Shown in pieces: positions 1,223 through 20,987 of a stretch of DNA of 21,464 nt. Each line of letters starts with the position of its first letter. Position 1 is the stretch's first letter. A program made the position numbers and the translations under genes. Location: positions 1 through 21,464 of the IMG/VR virus record IMGVR_UViG_3300010885_008372; one strand, given 5' to 3'. The notes under the pieces were generated by a model. That model did not search any database, was not told the origin of the DNA, and saw nothing but the letters and a program-made list of their open reading frames with translations. The stretch comes from a virus.

Positions 1223-3487
1223 TTAGTTGTTTTCATAAAGATAATTAAATTCGTACAATATATTAAATAAATAGTTGGTAAAATCAGTAAAATTGTCTAC
1301 ATAATCAGTGTCACTATTAAATACTTCCCACATTGTAAACTCAGCTGAATCATTTTTATAATCTATAGCTACACTACCTAATAACATTTTATTGTGTAAT
1401 GATGCTCCAGTAAACCCATTGCTAAATATTGCTAGATTGCTAAGCACTCCATTTGAATTTCTAATACTAAGTAAATTGCCATTAAATTTCGTTCTAGGAA
1501 TGTAACGCTGAAACATGTAAGTCTCAGTAACCAACTGCCCTAGATTTTGATAGGTAGCATCAGGTATGCCTGTATTGTAACCATATCCAAACTTCCATGT
1601 AGTACATTTATCTTGTAATATGCCAGTTTGAGTTGTTAAAAATAATGTACCTGATATTGATGAACGTTCTGTATTGTCAATAAATATTTCAACATCATTT
1701 ACATTATTTAATTTTTTTGATTGGCTTGCATTATGACTATGACCAGTAACTTGACCTTGACCAGCAATAACAAATTTTAATTCAAATCTTAATCCTTTGT
1801 ACCTAGTTTCATCTGAAGGTGATGCTGTTGCTTCAGCTAAATAAATATTTAAAATACCATCAAATGGTGCTTTTGCATTTTCAATATTGACATTTTGCCA
1901 TTGATTAGTATTTTGTCCTGAAGGTATATAAACTGTATATCCTGGAAATGCAGCCCAAGTATAATCATCTTGTAAAAATAATGTTGTTGTTCCATTAGTT
2001 ATTCTAATAGCAAATTGTATACTATTTGGTCCAGGTTGACTTACATCAGTAGAAAATTGAAATGTATAATTAAAAATATCACCTTGATTTAATGGTATAT
2101 TTTGCGATTGAACAGATCTTGGGGCATCCCAAGTACTTCCAGTAACTACAACATATCTTTCTACTTCATTACCTCCATCATTTATTACTCTAATAAATCT
2201 ATTTGGTGATGGTGATGGATGGGCATCATAATCAAACCAACATGGCAAATCATACTCTCTATTGGTAAATCCTCCACCAGTTGTTACTTGTCTTAAAGGC
2301 CCTAAATCAGTAAATTGGCTATTACATAACAAATCCTCAGGCTGTACATAATTAAAGGTCTCTAATGTCCTCCTATAAGGTCTAATGATAGATTTAAGTA
2401 AACCAGTCTCAATACTATTATTTGATAAAAAATCATAAGATTTGTTTATTTGTAATAAATCTACATAATCAAAATCACTATTGTAATTGTAATAATATAT
2501 AACCGTTTGACCTTCCTCAAAATCTAAAAATAAATCAGGATAACGCACTATCCACCAACTGCCCAAAGATTGAAAGCATGACATGTTAAAACGCTTCATA
2601 ATTATCTCTAACACATCATAGCAACTCATGTACTCATTACCTTTTAAAAATGTGTTACCTAATAAGGTAACATCTTCAAGTATTCTAGTCTCACCAGTAT
2701 CTAAGAAAATCTCACCATCGGATGGAGTAATGTGATTGTAAACATTTAAACCCATATCTGTTACATAAGTAGAACGTAAACATAACTTTATAAAAGTCAT
2801 TAATGGTATGTAACCATCTAATGATACTACTTGTCTATACGTTATATCAAATGTGCCTATCACTAATGCTGGTATATCTTCAATTATTTGAATACACCAA
2901 CCTGTATAAAATAAATCAATTTCACCCAAATTGGTAACCATTGTAAATGGTGTACCATCTATTGTAAAAGTTTGACCAGGTTGCACATTCCAAGTTGCTA
3001 CGTTTATTACAATATATGGGCCAGCTGGAACAAACGCACAACCTACATTTGTTAAAGTAGTTACATCACCAAATAAAAAAGCCGCTCTATCTAAATTTAT
3101 ATCTTTTATAGTCCCTAAGTTATCGGATGCAGTTAATGTAATTGTATGTATAAAATCTATCTGCACTTCACTACAATCATCTTGTTGTATAAATCCATCA
3201 AATAATGTACCTGCAGTTGTATCTTCAATTAACTTAACCCTAAACTCATTGTCATTGTCTGAATAAAAATCTGATAACGATAAGCCACCTGATGTAGTAA
3301 GATTTATTGTTAGTGTACTACCTTTTATAGGTGCCAATGGATCATCTTCCTGCCACTCATGTATAACTGGCGTGCCAGCTAAAATAAATGGGATAGAAGC
3401 ACCCTCATAACTATCCTGATAGATTTCTACAATGTATCTAAGTTGCGTTCTAATTGAATCAAATGAGCTTGTGTATTTTAATCCCAT
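1223..3487 (-). CDS. Large tail hub/baseplate-like protein with carbohydrate-binding-like insert
   Basis: This 754-residue protein sits directly after the tape measure gene, the usual place for distal-tail and hub proteins. Its ATG overlaps the tape measure stop as TAATG, implying coupled translation. Residues 1-130 are beta-rich and end in a segment reading ITLTASDNLGTIKDINLD. Residues 285-320 carry a Cys-Tyr-Asp-Val-Leu-Glu-Ile-Ile helix and then GSWWIVRYPDLF, a helix-then-Gly-x-Trp pattern I associate with Bacteroidota phage tail hubs. Residues about 385-575 look like a beta-sandwich module of the CBM4/9 type (LLCNSQFTD start, aromatic-rich strands), possibly a glycan-binding insert. No peptidase or lysozyme motif is seen. 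The hub role is inferred from position and size; the insert assignment is weaker. Confidence 0.65.
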   Translation of the reverse strand: MGLKYTSSFDSIRTQLRYIVEIYQDSYEGASIPFILAGTPVIHEWQEDDPLAPIKGSTLTINLTTSGGLSLSDFYSDNDNEFRVKLIEDTTAGTLFDGFIQQDDCSEVQIDFIHTITLTASDNLGTIKDINLDRAAFLFGDVTTLTNVGCAFVPAGPYIVINVATWNVQPGQTFTIDGTPFTMVTNLGEIDLFYTGWCIQIIEDIPALVIGTFDITYRQVVSLDGYIPLMTFIKLCLRSTYVTDMGLNVYNHITPSDGEIFLDTGETRILEDVTLLGNTFLKGNEYMSCYDVLEIIMKRFNMSCFQSLGSWWIVRYPDLFLDFEEGQTVIYYYNYNSDFDYVDLLQINKSYDFLSNNSIETGLLKSIIRPYRRTLETFNYVQPEDLLCNSQFTDLGPLRQVTTGGGFTNREYDLPCWFDYDAHPSPSPNRFIRVINDGGNEVERYVVVTGSTWDAPRSVQSQNIPLNQGDIFNYTFQFSTDVSQPGPNSIQFAIRITNGTTTLFLQDDYTWAAFPGYTVYIPSGQNTNQWQNVNIENAKAPFDGILNIYLAEATASPSDETRYKGLRFELKFVIAGQGQVTGHSHNASQSKKLNNVNDVEIFIDNTERSSISGTLFLTTQTGILQDKCTTWKFGYGYNTGIPDATYQNLGQLVTETYMFQRYIPRTKFNGNLLSIRNSNGVLSNLAIFSNGFTGASLHNKMLLGSVAIDYKNDSAEFTMWEVFNSDTDYVDNFTDFTNYLFNILYEFNYLYENN

Positions 3488-5328
3488 TATGTTGTACGTG
3501 CATAAGTAGCACTATATTTTTTATTACTAAAATAAATATCTTGACCTCTTAAAATGCCGTAAATCTCTAATCCACCAGTTACACCACCTAACATGTTAGA
3601 TGTTTGAGCTGCAGGGATTACTTGACTGCCTCTTGGTAAATTAATCAACTCAGGTCCACGCTCCCCAACTAATGCCATACCACCAGGTGCATTACGTGTA
3701 CCAACTGCAAATGCATTTTGAGTACTAGTTGCACTTTTTATTAATGAGCCTAAAGCTACCAATGCAACCCCTGCAGCAATAACTAAAAAAGGATTTGCTA
3801 AAGCTTGAGCAATTGCAGCTTGAGCTACTAATGCAGCTGCACCAATTGCAATAATTTGCTCACCTAAAGTAGCTACTACTCCACCTAATGCATTAAATAT
3901 ACTTTGAAAAATATCACCGAAATTAGCAGTACCATTTATTGCAGCTGCTAATCCTTCTCCAAGTCCTACACCTATTGCAGATATTGATGATTCTAATGCT
4001 GATGCTAATGCATCAGTTATATTTACTGCATCTTTTTTTATATTATCTATACTACCTTGTGGAATTGCAAATGGTATAGCTATTGGTGTAAGATTTATTT
4101 TCTCTTGTAATGATTTAACTAAATCTTTAGGTTTTACTTCATCCAATGATCTTTTTAATCTATTTAACTCAAATACTAATGGCAATGTAAAAGCTGGATT
4201 AGCTTTAAACTTTGTAATTGCAGTTGTTATAAAAGATTCAAACGCTTGTATGTTTGCTTTTGTTGCCGGCTCATTAAATGCTAAAGCTATTCTCTCATTA
4301 GCTACTAATGTAGCTATAAATGCATTGTATGCATCTTTTAATGTTTCAACTTTTTTTACTGATTTAGTATTAGTAACATTTTTTCTACGTTCCTCAGCTT
4401 CTAATGCCTGTACCGCTAATTTTGATAATGCAAGTTGATTTTGATAATCTTTGTAAATTTTCTTTTGCTCATTTACCTTTTTAGCTGCATCTACAGCAAC
4501 TTGAACATATCTTTTTTGCTCATCAGTAAAGCCAGCTAACTGATCAGATGTAACATTAGAAATATCATTAAATGAACGTATAGCATTTCTAAAATTATTC
4601 GTAGATTCAAAAGATCCTTGTTGTGTCTCTGCGAATCTATTTAAAGCACCTTCAGCATCTTTATATAATTGAATTGATTGACCAACATCTAAATTAGCCT
4701 GTGCTGTTTCCTCTCCTAATATTCTAACATTTAAAGCTGCAGATTTTGCAGATGCAGCCGCACCACCAAAATTTATTTTAAACTCTAAATCTTTTGTAGC
4801 CTTTATAAAATCTAATTCTGTTTTTAAGTCTTTTAAATCATTACCTACATTTTTTATGTCTGTAGATAATCTAACTAACGAACCACCATAAATATCTGAT
4901 GCATCTGCTGCCTCTTTACTTGTTCTACTCCACGCAGTAAATCCAATCTGAGCAAAACTTATAGCTGCAGTAACTACACCAAATGCCAACCCAAGACCAG
5001 CAGGCCCACTCAACCCACCAACCAACGCTTTTAATGCTCCACCAGTGCTACCAGTCTCAGCTTTTAATCTACCAAATGATTCAACTAACGGATTGATGTT
5101 ATTGGCAATACCTATAAAGCCAAATGGAGCATCCTGAGCTATTCTAGATAGATTTTGTATTGATTGCCCGGCTTGTGTAGCTCCATTGTTTAAATTACTT
5201 CTTAATGCATCTCCAGTTTTCTTAGCCTCAGTAGCTGTAGTTTTTAATGCATCAGTAGTATTTTTAAGACCACTACTAACCTTATCAAATCCGGTTGCCG
5301 TAACTATTATCTCTATCTCTTCTGCCAT
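3487..5328 (-). CDS. Tail tape measure protein
   Basis: The tape measure protein sets tail length and occupies the tube lumen before DNA ejection. The 613-residue product has an Ala/Lys/Thr-rich helical N-terminus, a hydrophobic stretch at about residues 105-130 (GPAGLGLAFGVVTAAISFAQ), long helical segments in the middle, and a strongly hydrophobic block at about 475-530. Near the C-terminus it has GGMALVGERGPELINLPRGS, a motif widely shared by siphophage tape measures. It follows the two-frame tail chaperone genes, as is typical, and its ATG overlaps the chaperone stop as TAATG. At about 0.15 nm per residue, the usual rule of thumb, it would give a tail of roughly 90 nm, moderately short. 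No peptidoglycan hydrolase domain is apparent. Confidence 0.9.
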   Translation of the reverse strand: MAEEIEIIVTATGFDKVSSGLKNTTDALKTTATEAKKTGDALRSNLNNGATQAGQSIQNLSRIAQDAPFGFIGIANNINPLVESFGRLKAETGSTGGALKALVGGLSGPAGLGLAFGVVTAAISFAQIGFTAWSRTSKEAADASDIYGGSLVRLSTDIKNVGNDLKDLKTELDFIKATKDLEFKINFGGAAASAKSAALNVRILGEETAQANLDVGQSIQLYKDAEGALNRFAETQQGSFESTNNFRNAIRSFNDISNVTSDQLAGFTDEQKRYVQVAVDAAKKVNEQKKIYKDYQNQLALSKLAVQALEAEERRKNVTNTKSVKKVETLKDAYNAFIATLVANERIALAFNEPATKANIQAFESFITTAITKFKANPAFTLPLVFELNRLKRSLDEVKPKDLVKSLQEKINLTPIAIPFAIPQGSIDNIKKDAVNITDALASALESSISAIGVGLGEGLAAAINGTANFGDIFQSIFNALGGVVATLGEQIIAIGAAALVAQAAIAQALANPFLVIAAGVALVALGSLIKSATSTQNAFAVGTRNAPGGMALVGERGPELINLPRGSQVIPAAQTSNMLGGVTGGLEIYGILRGQDIYFSNKKYSATYARTT

Positions 5329-10684: not shown

Positions 10685-10694
10685 ATAATTTTGC

Positions 10695-10782
10695 ACTTGG
10701 TAAGGGATTTGCACCCTTATCTCCCTACTATGTAAGGGCGTTTCCTAATGTTGGTATTTATTCCCAATTACGCCAACCAAGT
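10695..10782 (-). tRNA. tRNA-like element of 88 nt, anticodon not assignable
   Basis: It reads on the minus strand, in the gap between the minor head protein and protease genes. Ends ACTTGGT and ACCAAGT form a perfect 7-bp acceptor stem. AAGGG TGCAAAT CCCTT forms a 5-bp T arm with a 7-base loop directly next to the acceptor, as in tRNAs. TG at positions 8-9 and GCGTAATTGGGA place GG at 18-19, like a D loop. The D-stem partner ACGC appears only about 20 bases late, and the next stem CCTTAC-ATA-GTAGGG has a 3-base loop, like a long variable arm. No 5-bp/7-base anticodon arm with U33 can be drawn. The T loop has G where U55 is expected. CCA is not encoded. It may be a decayed tRNA or a tRNA-mimicking RNA. 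Confidence 0.5.
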
Positions 10783-15277: not shown

Positions 15278-15336
15278 ATCTTTTTTATCTGTTTGTAATC
15301 TATGTAATCAATTTTAACCATTTTTCTATTTCTCTC

Positions 15337-15356
15337 TATATATATATATATATATA
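15337..15356. repeat. (TA)10 dinucleotide tract
   Basis: Twenty bases of alternating TA lie in the 187-base gap between the primase and the 108-residue gene, next to a GGTTACA heptamer cluster. Such a tract melts easily and could act as an unwinding element or promoter spacer. It may also be polymerase slippage with no function. Confidence 0.8.
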
Positions 15357-15381
15357 CTTTAGTAAAATAAATATAAAAATA

Positions 15382-15492
15382 GGTTACATCGGTTACAAAT
15401 GTTGTTATTTAATTGATTTTCAATACGTTGGGATGTAACCAATCCGTAAATAAATCGGTTACAATTAAAATAAATCGGTTACATTGGTTACA
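15382..15492. repeat. GGTTACA heptamer cluster, origin-like iterons, overlapping the primase 3' end
   Basis: GGTTACA occurs at 15382-15388, 15391-15397, 15457-15463, 15477-15483 and 15486-15492, with the inverse TGTAACC at 15434-15440. Two pairs are spaced exactly 9 bases apart. A 16-bp direct repeat (AAATAAATCGGTTACA) occurs at 15448-15463 and 15468-15483, spanning the primase stop. GGTTACATC (15382-15390) and GATGTAACC (15432-15440) are inverted. Further TGTAACC copies lie inside the primase gene at 15560-15566 and 15601-15607. Clustered iterons next to the primase and a TA tract suggest a replication origin or operator. This is inference. Confidence 0.6.
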
Positions 15493-17825
15493 CTTTCTAT
15501 GAAGTTATTATGATTTTTTCCTATTTTAAAGTACTTTTTGTTGTTATCTTGTCTATTTTTGTAACCAATGTAATCAATCCCAAAAATTTGGGAACCTATT
15601 TGTAACCCTTTTGAGAATCTTTTTAAACTATAATCTCTAGGCTGTAATTCATAACGATTTAGAAAGTTTTTCCACTCATCATTTAATGGTAATTGCTGCC
15701 CTAAATAATCTTCTATAATGGTGTCAAAATAGTCCAAAAAATCCTCACTAAATTGTAGTTTAATTTGTTTTCTATTAAGTTTTTCACTATTCATTATTGG
15801 CTGTATGCCATTAATAAAATAGTACTGCACACAGATAAAAAGAAAGTTATAGAAACGCTGCCACTCATCATTATCCCAGTCATTAAATAATTTGTTACCA
15901 AAGTACTGTTCAGGTGTCTTTGTAGATGAGAAAAATGGAGCAAACTCCAGTACTCTTTGCCTACGTTTAGCATGTTCTGCATTAGATGCTATGCTATAAT
16001 TGGTAGTAAATGCAAGCTTAGGGCTATCATCAAAGCTTAAAAATATCTCATCTTTATTCTTTTTTTCAATGGTCATACCTTCGGTAATGGTCGGGTAATA
16101 ACGCTCAAACTCTACATTCTTAGGGCAATCTTCAATGATTACAAGCTTTGTTCCAAGCTCTACCCGGCTAAATGCAAATGTTTTATCAGGCTTAAAGTTT
16201 TTACCATCCATTGTAACTGTAGGTATAAGTTTGCTTATAGCTTTAAAGAATATACCTTTACCAGTACCACCACCTTTGGTCTCATCATCAGTCTCTTCAG
16301 CTAAAATCACTGCATAAGGTCGGCTTGAATCTTTATAACTGTGTAGTATGTAGCCAATTATAGACATTGCATAACTTATACGCTCAGGCTCATCATTACT
16401 AATTTTCTCAATAAACTTGTAATACTGGCATTCTGTAATATCAACATCTTTATTTATGTAAATATCAAAGTCATTGATTTGGCTATCCCAAATGGACTGA
16501 TTAATGGTACCATAATCTATTCTGCTAATATTACCTTTGTCAATGGTTACAATACCATTTTTGAATGGGAAGTAGCATTTATTGGCTTCATCTCTAAGTA
16601 TCTCAATCTCTGACTTGTCAATATATTCAAAGAAAGCATCAGTAAATATGCTATTGGTATTCTTTATGATTTGCTCCATAACGTCAATATGTCCAGCATC
16701 AACAAGCTTCTTTTTTATAAACTTTTTTATTGATTCTGAGTAAACCTCTCTTACTTGCCTGTTCTCTTCATGTATGAGACGGTATACTTTATTTTTTGCG
16801 TTTTGAAAATACAGCTGATAGTTATTATAATGTAACCACTTTTGCAATGCATAACGCTCAATAATTACAGCTCCATTTTTGTTATGGTACCAAAACCAAC
16901 CACCAGTATTAACCTCACCATAAATATCACTAAGCTCTTTACAAGCCTTTTTAGCATCATTATTTGTCTCAAGCATACAATACACCCCAAATGGATTATA
17001 ACCCTTATTTTGAAAGTTTGTAGAGGTTGTATGAGGATAAAATATCCTTGTGTCATTAAATAATACAGCAGATGTAGCAGATGTGGTTGAGCCTGGTCTA
17101 AGTAGGTAAGTTTTTTTACCATCATTATTTAAAACTGACCAGCCATGTTTTTCAAGTAGTGCAAGCACATCACCTCTTTTGTTGTAATCTTCCCACACGG
17201 TAAGCTTATCGTTATTATGAGCTATTTTTGGCTGTTCTATGGTCTCAATAATTTGATTAAATTCCCTAGCACAACTCATAAGTGTATCGCGCTCATCAAT
17301 AGATAAAACTGGTATTGATTTACTATTTCCATCAATTGGGTTGTAGCCTGGTGTTGGAGGCGCACAAACATAACCACCTTCACCTCTTGTCTCAATTAAT
17401 ACATAAGATTTAGCCATTGGATTGGCTTTTAATTCTGCATCATTTGGAGGCCTTTCTGCAAGCTTTTGATTTCCTTCAATAAATTCACATCTAAAGTAAA
17501 TGTGGTAGCCATCAGATTTGGTTTTAACGATAAATAATTTGCTGTATAGCACAGGATCTGCATCAAGTATTTTATCACAATAATTTGTAAAATTGACACC
17601 ATATTTGCAGTCCACATCTATAACCTCTAGATTGTTAGATACAGCCCCACATATAACTGCAAGTCCTTGCACTTTAGGATGTGCAAACATTGTAATAAGT
17701 TGCTGATCAGTTGGTATGTTGTATTGGTATTGCTTCCATGATCCAATGGAGCGTTTAGTGTTGTCAGTTGAGATTACCGATAAGCCTGCTGCTGCGTAGT
17801 CCCTCGCTGATTTTAATAAATTCAT
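15465..17825 (-). CDS. Primase-polymerase with C-terminal SF3-type helicase
   Basis: This 786-residue protein would prime and unwind at the phage origin. Residues 1-175 form a bifunctional primase-polymerase domain: KSARDYAAAGLSVISTDNTK opening, LEVIDVDCKYG with the metal-binding Asp70 and Asp72, SDGYHIYF with His108, and VLIETRGEGGYVCAPPTPGY. Residues about 500-640 are a helicase: Walker A GGGTGKGIF (518-526, Lys523), Walker B LVIIEDC (561-567) and KLAFTTN (603-609) with its polar Asn, then a basic RRQR finger candidate. The C-terminus reads ESVTNVTDLF, encoded by the GGTTACA iterons that continue past the stop. Its first 62 bases overlap the VRR-NUC gene. Confidence 0.92.
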   Translation of the reverse strand: MNLLKSARDYAAAGLSVISTDNTKRSIGSWKQYQYNIPTDQQLITMFAHPKVQGLAVICGAVSNNLEVIDVDCKYGVNFTNYCDKILDADPVLYSKLFIVKTKSDGYHIYFRCEFIEGNQKLAERPPNDAELKANPMAKSYVLIETRGEGGYVCAPPTPGYNPIDGNSKSIPVLSIDERDTLMSCAREFNQIIETIEQPKIAHNNDKLTVWEDYNKRGDVLALLEKHGWSVLNNDGKKTYLLRPGSTTSATSAVLFNDTRIFYPHTTSTNFQNKGYNPFGVYCMLETNNDAKKACKELSDIYGEVNTGGWFWYHNKNGAVIIERYALQKWLHYNNYQLYFQNAKNKVYRLIHEENRQVREVYSESIKKFIKKKLVDAGHIDVMEQIIKNTNSIFTDAFFEYIDKSEIEILRDEANKCYFPFKNGIVTIDKGNISRIDYGTINQSIWDSQINDFDIYINKDVDITECQYYKFIEKISNDEPERISYAMSIIGYILHSYKDSSRPYAVILAEETDDETKGGGTGKGIFFKAISKLIPTVTMDGKNFKPDKTFAFSRVELGTKLVIIEDCPKNVEFERYYPTITEGMTIEKKNKDEIFLSFDDSPKLAFTTNYSIASNAEHAKRRQRVLEFAPFFSSTKTPEQYFGNKLFNDWDNDEWQRFYNFLFICVQYYFINGIQPIMNSEKLNRKQIKLQFSEDFLDYFDTIIEDYLGQQLPLNDEWKNFLNRYELQPRDYSLKRFSKGLQIGSQIFGIDYIGYKNRQDNNKKYFKIGKNHNNFIESVTNVTDLF

Positions 17826-18286: not shown

Positions 18287-18890
18287 TGATTTGTTTTTTT
18301 AGTTTGTTATTTAATTTGATGATTTGTTTTATTGGTTCCGGGTACTGATGAAGGGTGTTTCTTTGCATATTTTCAACTTTAGTAATAAGCTCCAGGTTGT
18401 TGATGTCAAAGTTTTGTTGATTATTGTCTTTAAACACTACTATATGATCAGCTGGAATGGGTCCATTAACTTGCTCCCAAATTACCCTATGCTTTAACCT
18501 CCAGTCATTGTCAGCAATCTTTACATAAGTATAACCGTCAGTAGATTTGCTTTCTTCGCCTTCCTTCCTTGTATTATGAGGTTTTGCACCTTTTTTAAAC
18601 ATGGTTTTTTGGCATTTTTCATAAAGTATTTTGGACATTTTTTGTCCATAATTGTAAGGTACATTACCTTTTTTAAATTGGTAATTTTTTCCAAATTCGG
18701 CTAGTTTTTTTGCCTCACGTTCCAGCATCTTTGCTAAATACTCTTTTGACTTTTTTAAGCCCATTGAATAAGCTTTACCATACACTCCACCCATTGGTCT
18801 ATTAAGTATAGTGGCAATATCAGCTGAATTCATATTGCTATAATTATCAGTCATAAATTTAATTTCTTTGTCTGTCCAAAATGTTCTCAT
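18270..18890 (-). CDS. HNH endonuclease with N-terminal helix-turn-helix-like domain
   Basis: This 206-residue protein has an N-terminal 50-residue part with FWTDKEIKFMTDNYSNMNSA, then DIATILNRPMGGVYGKAYSMG, a helix-turn-helix/Myb-like DNA-binding pattern. The middle is basic and carries two FKKG-type motifs (FKKGNVPYN at 72-80 and FKKGAKPHN at 98-106). The nuclease is at 118-185: DGYTYVKIA, KHRVIWEQVNGPIPADHIVV (His134 and His149), FKDNNQQNFDINNLELIT and the Asn-x-x-Arg-Asn helix. This is the HNH_3 phage type, and the catalytic residues look intact. It could be a free-standing homing endonuclease or a host/packaging nuclease. It overlaps the helicase end by 32 bases, so it is in the operon rather than a disrupted gene. 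Confidence 0.88.
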   Translation of the reverse strand: MRTFWTDKEIKFMTDNYSNMNSADIATILNRPMGGVYGKAYSMGLKKSKEYLAKMLEREAKKLAEFGKNYQFKKGNVPYNYGQKMSKILYEKCQKTMFKKGAKPHNTRKEGEESKSTDGYTYVKIADNDWRLKHRVIWEQVNGPIPADHIVVFKDNNQQNFDINNLELITKVENMQRNTLHQYPEPIKQIIKLNNKLKKQINAKQN

Positions 18891-20367
18891 CTATTAATAG
18901 TTTTAAAAATGATTGTGTATCAATACCGGCTTTAATGATGTTGTCTTGCATATCATTACACCAGCACCATAAGTAGTTTTCAATTTGTCGGGCATCGAAT
19001 GTAGGATATTTTTTCAAACTTTGCAAAGCCATTTTTTTGTATGCTAATATTTGCACTTCATTACGTGCAACGATAGTACTAGATTTTATGGCTTGTACTG
19101 CTTGCACTGGCATAGTTTTCAAATCTTCAACAAAATAAGATGTGGTATAATTTTTCTTATTGCATACTGCTTTATAAATACGCTCCTCAATGCCATTGAT
19201 GGCAAATATCCAATGTACTTTAGCAGCTTCAACTCTATCTTTAGATTGTAGCCTTGCTCTTACCTGAAAATAAGTAACTGCAGAAAAATCAATATTGTAA
19301 CACACCAGGCAATCGGCAGTAGATAGGTTTACACCTTCTCTACCACTCACAAATTGGGATAAGAAAATCATATCATCATTGGCTTGAAATTCCTCCGGTG
19401 ATTCGGTACATTTTAAGCCTCTTTTTTGCGCTCCTAACATTAGGACAGTACGTTCAGCTTTAAACTTATAAAAGATAGCAAATTTTAAGCCCTTGAACGT
19501 GTCAAAGATATAATTCACTTTACTATCATCAGTGATAGCTGAATCTTGTTCATCACACATAGCCACATCAAAAATAACAGTGCCTGAGTAAAGCTGATGT
19601 AGTTTTGATAGTAGTTTCACTTCGGTATCTGCTTCAATAATATCCCCATTTTTACCTATGACAACTTTGTCAATACGTAGTCTATTGCATACTTGGTATG
19701 TCCTATCAGACATGGCAACCTGGTGGATATGCTCATCAACTAATTGTGTAAATCCTGCCTCTTCCTGAGTATAGGATAAAAATAAATGGCTTACTACTTT
19801 GTCAATGGCTTCTTTATTGGCATTTGTATAATCATGAATCTGTCTATTAAATACATACTTAGATTCAATGGTTACAAATCCCTCTCTAGCCCATGTATAA
19901 AAGTTTTTCTGTGTAAATGGATTAAATGAGCTTATCCAAAATTGATGATAAAGTTGGCTATAAGATTCGGGTGATGGTGTCCCACTAAGATATATGATTG
20001 GAAGGTTATGACATAGCCTCTTTAATTCTTTAGTACGTTTGGAAGGAATGGCAAAGGCACCAGTGCAATGAGCCTCATCAATTATCACCAGGTCAAAGTA
20101 CTGATCAGTGATATTATGCAGTTGCTCAAAGTTTATGACAAAGCATTTAAAGTGTTGTTTGTAATGCTCATAATCTGCTACTACGCTTAATGTAGCTTTC
20201 TTTTTTGTTACAAAGAGTATGTTTTTTGCACCATAAAGTTGACACGTATTAAGGGCAGTTAGTGTTTTGCCTGTTCTAACTTGCATGGATAGATAGGCTA
20301 TTTTGTATTGTTTTAAAAGCTCGCAAGCTTTGGTTGATATCTTAACCTGGTAATCTCGTAATTGCAT
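18859..20367 (-). CDS. DEAH-box superfamily 2 helicase
   Basis: This 502-residue protein has an intact SF2 helicase core: MQLRDYQVKISTKACELLKQ with the Q-motif region, Walker A MQVRTGKTLTA (28-38, Lys34), motif Ia region ILFVTKKKATL, DEAH in VIIDEAHCTG (97-100), motif III YLSGTPSPES (126-135), motif V SGREGVNLSTADCLV (341-355), and motif VI FQVRARLQSKDRVEAA (367-382) with the arginine-finger position. The C-terminal 80 residues are helical and not recognised. In phages such proteins serve in replication or recombination. It is read together with the upstream sigma-like gene, whose end it overlaps by 26 bases. A restriction helicase is unlikely because no partner is present. Confidence 0.9.
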   Translation of the reverse strand: MQLRDYQVKISTKACELLKQYKIAYLSMQVRTGKTLTALNTCQLYGAKNILFVTKKKATLSVVADYEHYKQHFKCFVINFEQLHNITDQYFDLVIIDEAHCTGAFAIPSKRTKELKRLCHNLPIIYLSGTPSPESYSQLYHQFWISSFNPFTQKNFYTWAREGFVTIESKYVFNRQIHDYTNANKEAIDKVVSHLFLSYTQEEAGFTQLVDEHIHQVAMSDRTYQVCNRLRIDKVVIGKNGDIIEADTEVKLLSKLHQLYSGTVIFDVAMCDEQDSAITDDSKVNYIFDTFKGLKFAIFYKFKAERTVLMLGAQKRGLKCTESPEEFQANDDMIFLSQFVSGREGVNLSTADCLVCYNIDFSAVTYFQVRARLQSKDRVEAAKVHWIFAINGIEERIYKAVCNKKNYTTSYFVEDLKTMPVQAVQAIKSSTIVARNEVQILAYKKMALQSLKKYPTFDARQIENYLWCWCNDMQDNIIKAGIDTQSFLKLLIDENILDRQRN

Positions 20368-20833
20368 TAGATAAATTTTTCTTTGCGTAATAAAATTGGC
20401 TTATTGAGTAAGATTGTGTTGTGTTTAATATTTTAGCTATTTCAATAAAGTTATAACCAGCAAGCTTTAAAATAACTACATTTCTTTGGCTTTCTTTTAA
20501 GTTGTCAATTTTTGACAATAAACTTTTTAAACGTAATTCTGTTACAATATTATCTTCTTTTGTAACAACCAAATCAGAATAATCAGCTATTGAGTAAATC
20601 TTGTCAACTGGTATGTAGTTTAGATGTTTTTTGTTGCGTCTGTAATTATCAATAAATGCAAAATTTACAAGTTTTGATAAGTATTTAAGGTTGACTGATT
20701 CGGGTGATTTTTGCCATAATTTAATAAGGACATTTTGATATATTTCGTTGATGGTATTATCATCTGTTGTGTAAGATGAGATATTGGACTTTATAAACTT
20801 GCCATATTTTTTTATAATCAGATTTATGTCCAT
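20342..20833 (-). CDS. Phage-encoded ECF-like sigma factor
   Basis: This 163-residue protein has a two-domain ECF sigma layout. Region 2 (residues about 1-70): NEIYQNVLIKLWQKSP, then SKLVNFAFIDNYRRNKKH, which resembles the -10-binding helix Tyr/Phe-x-x-x-x-Ala-x-x-Asp-x-x-Arg-Arg. Region 4 (about 105-158): LKESQRNVVILKLAGYNFIE followed by IAKILNTTQSYSISQFYYAK, a clear helix-turn-helix. The linker is about 30 residues. If functional it would redirect host RNA polymerase to phage promoters. It could instead be a sigma-like regulator. A terminator-like hairpin stands 4 bases upstream of its ATG, and a possible promoter lies farther upstream, so its level may be controlled by attenuation. Confidence 0.8.
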   Translation of the reverse strand: MDINLIIKKYGKFIKSNISSYTTDDNTINEIYQNVLIKLWQKSPESVNLKYLSKLVNFAFIDNYRRNKKHLNYIPVDKIYSIADYSDLVVTKEDNIVTELRLKSLLSKIDNLKESQRNVVILKLAGYNFIEIAKILNTTQSYSISQFYYAKKNLSNAITRLPG

Positions 20834-20837
20834 AAGT

Positions 20838-20879
20838 AAAAAAAGACCACAAAGCAGATCTTACCGTATGCAATGTGGT
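20838..20879 (-). terminator. Terminator-like hairpin directly before the sigma-factor start
   Basis: On the minus strand ACCACA (20874-20879) pairs with TGTGGT (20846-20851), with GCA/TGC inside across a small internal loop. The hairpin is followed by C and then seven T residues (20838-20844). It has the shape of an intrinsic terminator. Its T-run ends 4 bases before the ATG of the sigma-like gene (20833), so it could act as an attenuator for that gene. Confidence 0.65.
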
Positions 20880-20885
20880 ACATGG

Positions 20886-20987
20886 TTACTCATCATCGTA
20901 ATTGTTATCCTCATTGCTTATCAAATGTACATATAATAAAGAAACAATTATAACTACTCCAAATTCAATTGAAAATACTATCCACAT
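20886..20987 (-). CDS. 33-residue single-pass membrane peptide
   Basis: An ATG at 20985-20987 opens a 33-codon frame ending in TAA at 20886-20888. The product begins MWIVFSIEFGVVIIVSLLYV, a hydrophobic run of about 20 residues that would span a membrane, followed by a strongly acidic tail (SNEDNNYDDE). The start is 10 bases after the stop of the 79-residue gene and the stop is followed by the terminator hairpin. Too short for standard gene calls. Possible roles include superinfection exclusion, anti-host membrane activity or a leader peptide. No family is known to me. A promoter-like TACATTTG lies inside it. Confidence 0.5.
   Translation of the reverse strand: MWIVFSIEFGVVIIVSLLYVHLISNEDNNYDDE
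20922..20929 (-). promoter_or_regulatory. Candidate Bacteroidota -7 box TACATTTG
   Basis: On the minus strand TACATTTG at 20922-20929 matches TAnnTTTG exactly. A TTG lies 15 bases upstream, closer than the usual -33 spacing. It sits inside the 33-codon frame. If active, transcription would start near 20914 and pass through the terminator hairpin into the sigma-like gene. One consensus match in AT-rich DNA may be chance. Confidence 0.28.

Follow-up and report, generated by a model that had tools for sequence, protein, structure and literature searches.

A small gene for a sigma-like protein whose start codon stands directly behind a terminator-shaped hairpin raises the question of whether the hairpin controls synthesis of the protein and, through it, the timing of late phage transcription, as an earlier note on this DNA had proposed. 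The locus lies in a 21,464-base virus fragment (the window, i.e. the whole stretch analysed), which comes from a tailed phage of freshwater origin and has minus as its gene strand throughout. Contig G001 (28.4 kb) represents the same virus, with proteins 99–100% identical across the common part, and G002 (29.4 kb) is a close relative. With the helicase gene (18859–20367, minus strand; ResIII 1.1e-8, phrog_62 3e-46) as bait, sibling phages were located at 13 loci; the siblings include G003 (29.9 kb), G007 (30.3 kb) and G009 (20.8 kb). Both G002, which repeats one gene at its two contig ends, and G003, in which the tape-measure gene spans the contig ends, look circularly permuted and near complete, neither being proven complete. 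The tape-measure-like gene of the window (3487–5328, minus strand) is only 44% identical in G002 and 83% in G007, while its neighbours are far less divergent, which suggests that this gene has been exchanged. The window also carries an intergenic tRNA-like gene (10694–10782, minus strand) that was missed by ARAGORN and scores 30.9 bits with the Rfam tRNA model (gathering threshold 29); it has a 7-bp acceptor stem (ACTTGGT/ACCAAGT), the T-loop TGCAAAT and some 22 additional bases close to the D arm, is kept in G002, G003 and G007 and is missing from G009. Another tRNA-like insert, absent from the window, is found at the contig end of G002 (L033, 14032–14127), between two small genes upstream of the 33-aa peptide gene described below; its score of 25.7 bits is below gathering.

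The sigma gene (20342–20833, minus strand) encodes 163 amino acids and shares its last 26 bases with the helicase gene. The protein aligns with TIGR02937 over residues 5–157 at 44.5 bits (cut-off 42.9) and with phrog_1740, a sigma factor family, at 1.5e-8, and sigma-factor models match all four members of the sigma alignment, so that the description of the product as an ECF-like sigma protein holds. Regions 2 (approximately residues 7–69) and 4 (approximately 104–140/158) were the only sigma regions found, regions 1.1 and 3 being absent. The Pfam models for both regions stay under their cut-offs in the window copy, and the region 4_2 model exceeds its cut-off in L003 and L042, two contigs discussed below. 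Since the window protein scores far under the cut-offs of every named ECF subfamily, it is best described as an ECF-type factor of no named group. With four sequences as input, AlphaFold gave a weak model (mean pLDDT 56), its C-terminal half being modelled better than sigma2; the 14 leading Foldseek matches obtained with this model were almost all ECF sigma factors (1or7, 5uxx and 5wuq being the best), none of them under an E-value of 0.001, and the sigma4 domain alone, likewise from the weak model, gave TM scores of 0.76–0.82 to 2h27, 3vfz and 3vep. Sequence comparison with PDB chains returned weak ECF matches only. The gene is under selection, as judged from dN/dS ratios of about 0.14 between the window and G002 (dN 0.037, dS 0.267) and 0.16 between L003 and L042 (dN 0.148, dS 0.951); codon comparison thus shows an intact reading frame under purifying selection. 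The statements on conservation rest on no more than five distinct sigma homologues, one of which is truncated at the end of its contig. No anti-sigma gene was found next to the sigma gene.

The hairpin (20838–20882, minus strand) reads on the minus strand ACCACA-TT-GCA, 12 nt and TGC-TT-TGTGGT (20879–20846), followed by C, a run of seven T (20844–20838), ACTT and the sigma ATG at 20833; the distance of four bases between T-run and start codon noted earlier is therefore exact. With a stem of 6 + 3 bp, a dG of -10.4 and the T7 tail, it has the form of a G+C-rich hairpin with a U-run. Hairpins of this quality (perfect outer stem of at least 6 bp, at least three G-C pairs, dG of -10 or lower, T-rich tail) are expected 0.075 times per 21.5-kb strand according to 40 dinucleotide shuffles; the minus strand of the window holds two, the second inside a coding gene. 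The global fold of a 71-nt stretch taken by itself is not unusual (z -0.97). No match to the hairpin was found in Rfam and none beyond chance in phage and plasmid records. A 19-codon open frame (MYHIAYGKICFVVFFYLWT; 20823–20882, minus strand) runs through the hairpin, and its stop codon overlaps the sigma start. It was rejected as a peptide gene, the differences from the corresponding elements of L050 and L125 being mostly non-synonymous, with dN similar to dS or higher.

Upstream of the hairpin, the 33-codon frame of the earlier note proved to be a real small gene (20886–20987, minus strand) for a single-span membrane peptide of the MWxVxxxEF family. It is conserved in relatives, namely G002, G003 and G007 as well as L003, adjoins the terminase in a second and a third phage family, and occurs both with and without sigma. 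More generally, single-span membrane peptides of 30–36 aa with the pattern MWxVYLxEF are encoded in L043–L051, L125–L127 and the window, either immediately before the terminase or within cargo slots, in three phage families; they have no family match. The 33-aa peptide was considered as an anti-sigma factor and rejected, as it matches no family and is widespread without sigma. The TAnnTTTG box (TACATTTG; 20922–20929, minus strand), which had been taken for a possible promoter, lies inside the peptide frame. As the motif occurs in the window at chance level (35 matches against 33.4 expected), the box carries no weight; it is replaced in the siblings by TACACTTA, TACATCTT and TACATATT, and was dropped as a promoter.

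If the hairpin served the sigma gene as a dedicated leader, the two should be found together. They are not conserved together. The sigma frame of L129 overlaps the end of the peptide gene with no hairpin in between, L003 has a gap of 11 bases and no hairpin between peptide and sigma genes, and L042 has neither the hairpin nor an intact peptide gene ahead of sigma. Conversely, L050, L125, L126 and L127 have the hairpin but no sigma gene, and there it stands 2–5 bases after the stop codons of other genes. The copies are clearly related (27 of 34 bases are shared between the window and L050, 28 of 34 between G002 and L050), and the hairpin is nearly unchanged between the window and G002. In the alignment, 33 of 47 columns are invariant, the loop is conserved like the stem, and the stem shows one compensatory change, from A-U to G-C. 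The T7 tail is restricted to the window, G001 and G002 and is lacking in the four sigma-less contexts. A search of 780 kb of related loci with a model built from the six copies revealed no further good copy. Compared as nucleotide alignments, these copies show a portable 46-nt element, conserved in stem and loop, which follows the stop codons of different genes independently of sigma; it can be read as a terminator-like element at the end of the gene before it, and it resembles an intrinsic terminator in the lineage of the window. The siblings hold at the same position an unrelated strong hairpin with the stem GCGAAAGGGTATAA/TTATACCCTTTTGC and a dG of -11 to -21. This second type, with a 14-bp stem and TATA on both flanks, occupies the same cargo slots in L012 (near 3257–3305), L014, L016, L017 and L019.

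The distribution of the sigma gene itself is equally discontinuous. It was not found anywhere in G003, G007 or G009 with a protein profile and phrog_1740, these contigs not being proven complete. The three hold most other genes of the window, with TerL 91%, the major capsid protein 92–96% and the primase 91–92% identical to those of the window, and the portal of G003 and G007 is 86–89% identical. The slot between peptide and helicase genes is complete and devoid of sigma in five loci: that of L014 contains a hairpin only, and those of L012, L016, L017 and L019 contain a 100-aa membrane ORF, a hairpin, an MPIDKQYHF ORF and a secreted ORF. In L003, which belongs to another phage family, the sigma gene again follows the 33-aa peptide gene and is placed between the genes for the small and the large terminase; in L042 it also lies between the terminase genes, directly after TerS, and the peptide gene is only a remnant. 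These two are the only carriers among 80 TerL relatives of L003. The sigma protein of L129, a member of the family of the window with sigma in the same slot, is 81% identical over 63 aa to that of L042 as compared with 63% to that of the window, and at the DNA level the sigma genes of L129 and L042 are 84% identical, those of the window and L042 72%. Between the family of the window and the other families, DNA similarity does not extend beyond the slot and the adjoining small genes, sigma included. This confinement, the rarity of sigma among the TerL relatives and the closeness of the L129 and L042 proteins all indicate that the gene is exchanged cargo. Two scans of bacterial and prophage genome contigs, seeded on short peptide matches, did not find it. 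Judged from these alignments, the sigma gene is shown to be present in some close relatives, absent from others and akin at the DNA level to the copies of a second phage family, and the slot, together with the same set of small genes and hairpins, recurs in three or more phage families as defined by their terminases.

The proposed switch for late genes fares poorly, because G003 and G007 carry the same late genes in the absence of sigma and because genomes with and without sigma conserve the late intergenic region (15278–15464) and its TGTAACC/GGTTACA repeats equally well. For the latter reason this candidate region was also discarded as the source of a late promoter shared with sigma, the search of other intergenic regions being non-exhaustive. 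The direct and inverted repeats form a cluster (15278–15590, minus strand) between the primase and the late genes in all siblings, a candidate origin or late control region. The position of sigma differs as well, the gene lying within the replication module in the family of the window and within the packaging operon in the second family. The hairpin, being a reusable element that also occurs elsewhere without the sigma gene, is unlikely to be an inherent timing switch for late genes.

How the sigma gene is expressed has to be considered in the light of its cramped upstream region. The bases between T-run and ATG are too few to accommodate a promoter, so that sigma must either be read from upstream transcripts that pass the hairpin or be transcribed from a start inside it; no promoter of its own was supported, the TAnnTTTG box being at chance level and not conserved, and none was located for the operon that hosts it. 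The idea of gating thus survives insofar as upstream transcripts have to read through the hairpin and T-run, but not as a device dedicated to sigma. The account that we consider probable is that of an accessory ECF sigma factor, composed of sigma2 and sigma4, which occupies an exchangeable slot between peptide and helicase genes, is read as part of the operon behind a partly terminating hairpin and is not an essential late switch. The gene would have no promoter of its own and would be expressed from the operon that hosts it. In this lineage, the hairpin and T7 run would end part of the transcripts coming from the peptide gene, and the sigma and helicase genes would be read at a reduced level owing to this partial termination. 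The hairpin may therefore lower sigma expression in this lineage without being its dedicated switch. The protein would redirect host RNA polymerase to a few promoters, which might be its own, those of the phage or those of the host, and would act as a fitness modifier; the analysis found no target promoter for it.

Other explanations deserve to be weighed. That the hairpin is a dedicated attenuator which times sigma, with sigma in turn activating the late genes, was the earlier proposal; the T7 run ending 4 nt ahead of the ATG and a hairpin that is beyond chance and nearly unchanged in G002 speak for it, but it has become very improbable in view of the sigma genes without hairpin in three relatives, the hairpins without sigma on four contigs, the siblings that keep late genes and late region without sigma, and the location in two different modules of what would have to be a single late switch. 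Alternatively, translation of the peptide gene, perhaps followed by the 19-codon frame, might deliver ribosomes to the sigma start and open the hairpin. Such coupling would fit the overlap of peptide and sigma frames in L129, their spacing of 11 bases in L003 and the end of the 19-codon frame across the sigma ATG in both the window and G002. It is nevertheless improbable, given that the 19-codon frame lacks coding constraint between elements, that the elements of L125–L127 end otherwise, that the peptide is widespread without sigma and that L042 has sigma without an intact peptide.

The protein might also be a degenerate relative of sigma factors that no longer initiates transcription and serves as a decoy or DNA-binding regulator. 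The sub-threshold Pfam scores of the window copy and the better modelling of the C-terminal half than of sigma2 would agree with this; we nevertheless hold it to be quite unlikely, as sigma2 and sigma4 both align along their length with TIGR02937 and the homologues show some of their strongest conservation at residues of region 2. The hairpin, for its part, could be a boundary or recombination site, or a site of RNA processing or binding, that marks cargo slots, its T7 tail being incidental. This is unlikely, though conceivable: the loop is as conserved as the stem and the T-run is not kept, and the element always lies 2–5 nt past a stop codon beside variable cargo in three phage families, but the unrelated strong hairpin of the siblings at the same place is what would be expected if any terminator sufficed, and the compensatory change affects one pair only. 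It is tempting to speculate further that this 46-nt sequence serves regulation or recombination as a specific, portable element: a phage or host factor would recognise its conserved loop, and the element would mark or insulate exchangeable cargo genes in several freshwater phage families. Sigma would be one such cargo and might in turn control other cargo genes. We regard this as rather doubtful.

The closest counterparts of the protein are the ECF (group 4) sigma-70 factors, such as E. coli sigmaE, SigW, SigM and the Bacteroidota-type models TIGR02985 and NF058625, with which it shares sigma2 and sigma4 joined by a short linker, a length of 149–163 aa and a TIGR02937 score over the cut-off; the best fold matches of its weak model are ECF factors as well. 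It differs from them in being encoded in a phage operon, in having no anti-sigma gene found alongside and in falling under all named-subfamily cut-offs. Its genetic setting recalls morons, which are accessory gene cassettes of phages: it is present or absent between close relatives, sits in a variable slot and is exchanged between phage families. Contrary to morons, the sigma gene has no recognised promoter of its own, has the terminator-like hairpin upstream rather than downstream, lies on the operon strand and overlaps the helicase gene downstream. Phage-encoded sigma factors as such are familiar from T4 gp55 and from SPO1 gp28 and gp34, which serve late or middle genes and are indispensable (PMC9429907), whereas the gene of the window is missing from close siblings that carry the same late genes. 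About 13% of the phage genomes in one survey encode a sigma factor, either essential or accessory and sporulation-like, the latter, for example that of phage SP10, in phages of spore formers (PMC9429907). SP10-type factors resemble the present one in being accessory and are thought to act on host programmes (PMC9429907); the window protein is, however, ECF-like rather than sporulation-like. Searches of open-access full text yielded no paper describing ECF sigma factors from phages of this kind. Thus, while phage sigma factors are known, an ECF-type factor as exchangeable cargo of small phages is new as far as the open-access text searched is concerned.

There are few descriptions of small phages, of about 30 kb, that carry an ECF-type sigma factor as optional cargo. 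A factor of this sort would allow a phage to redirect host transcription although it is unneeded for the phage's own late genes. The cargo slot, occurring with and without sigma, offers a clear natural comparison for finding the targets of the factor.
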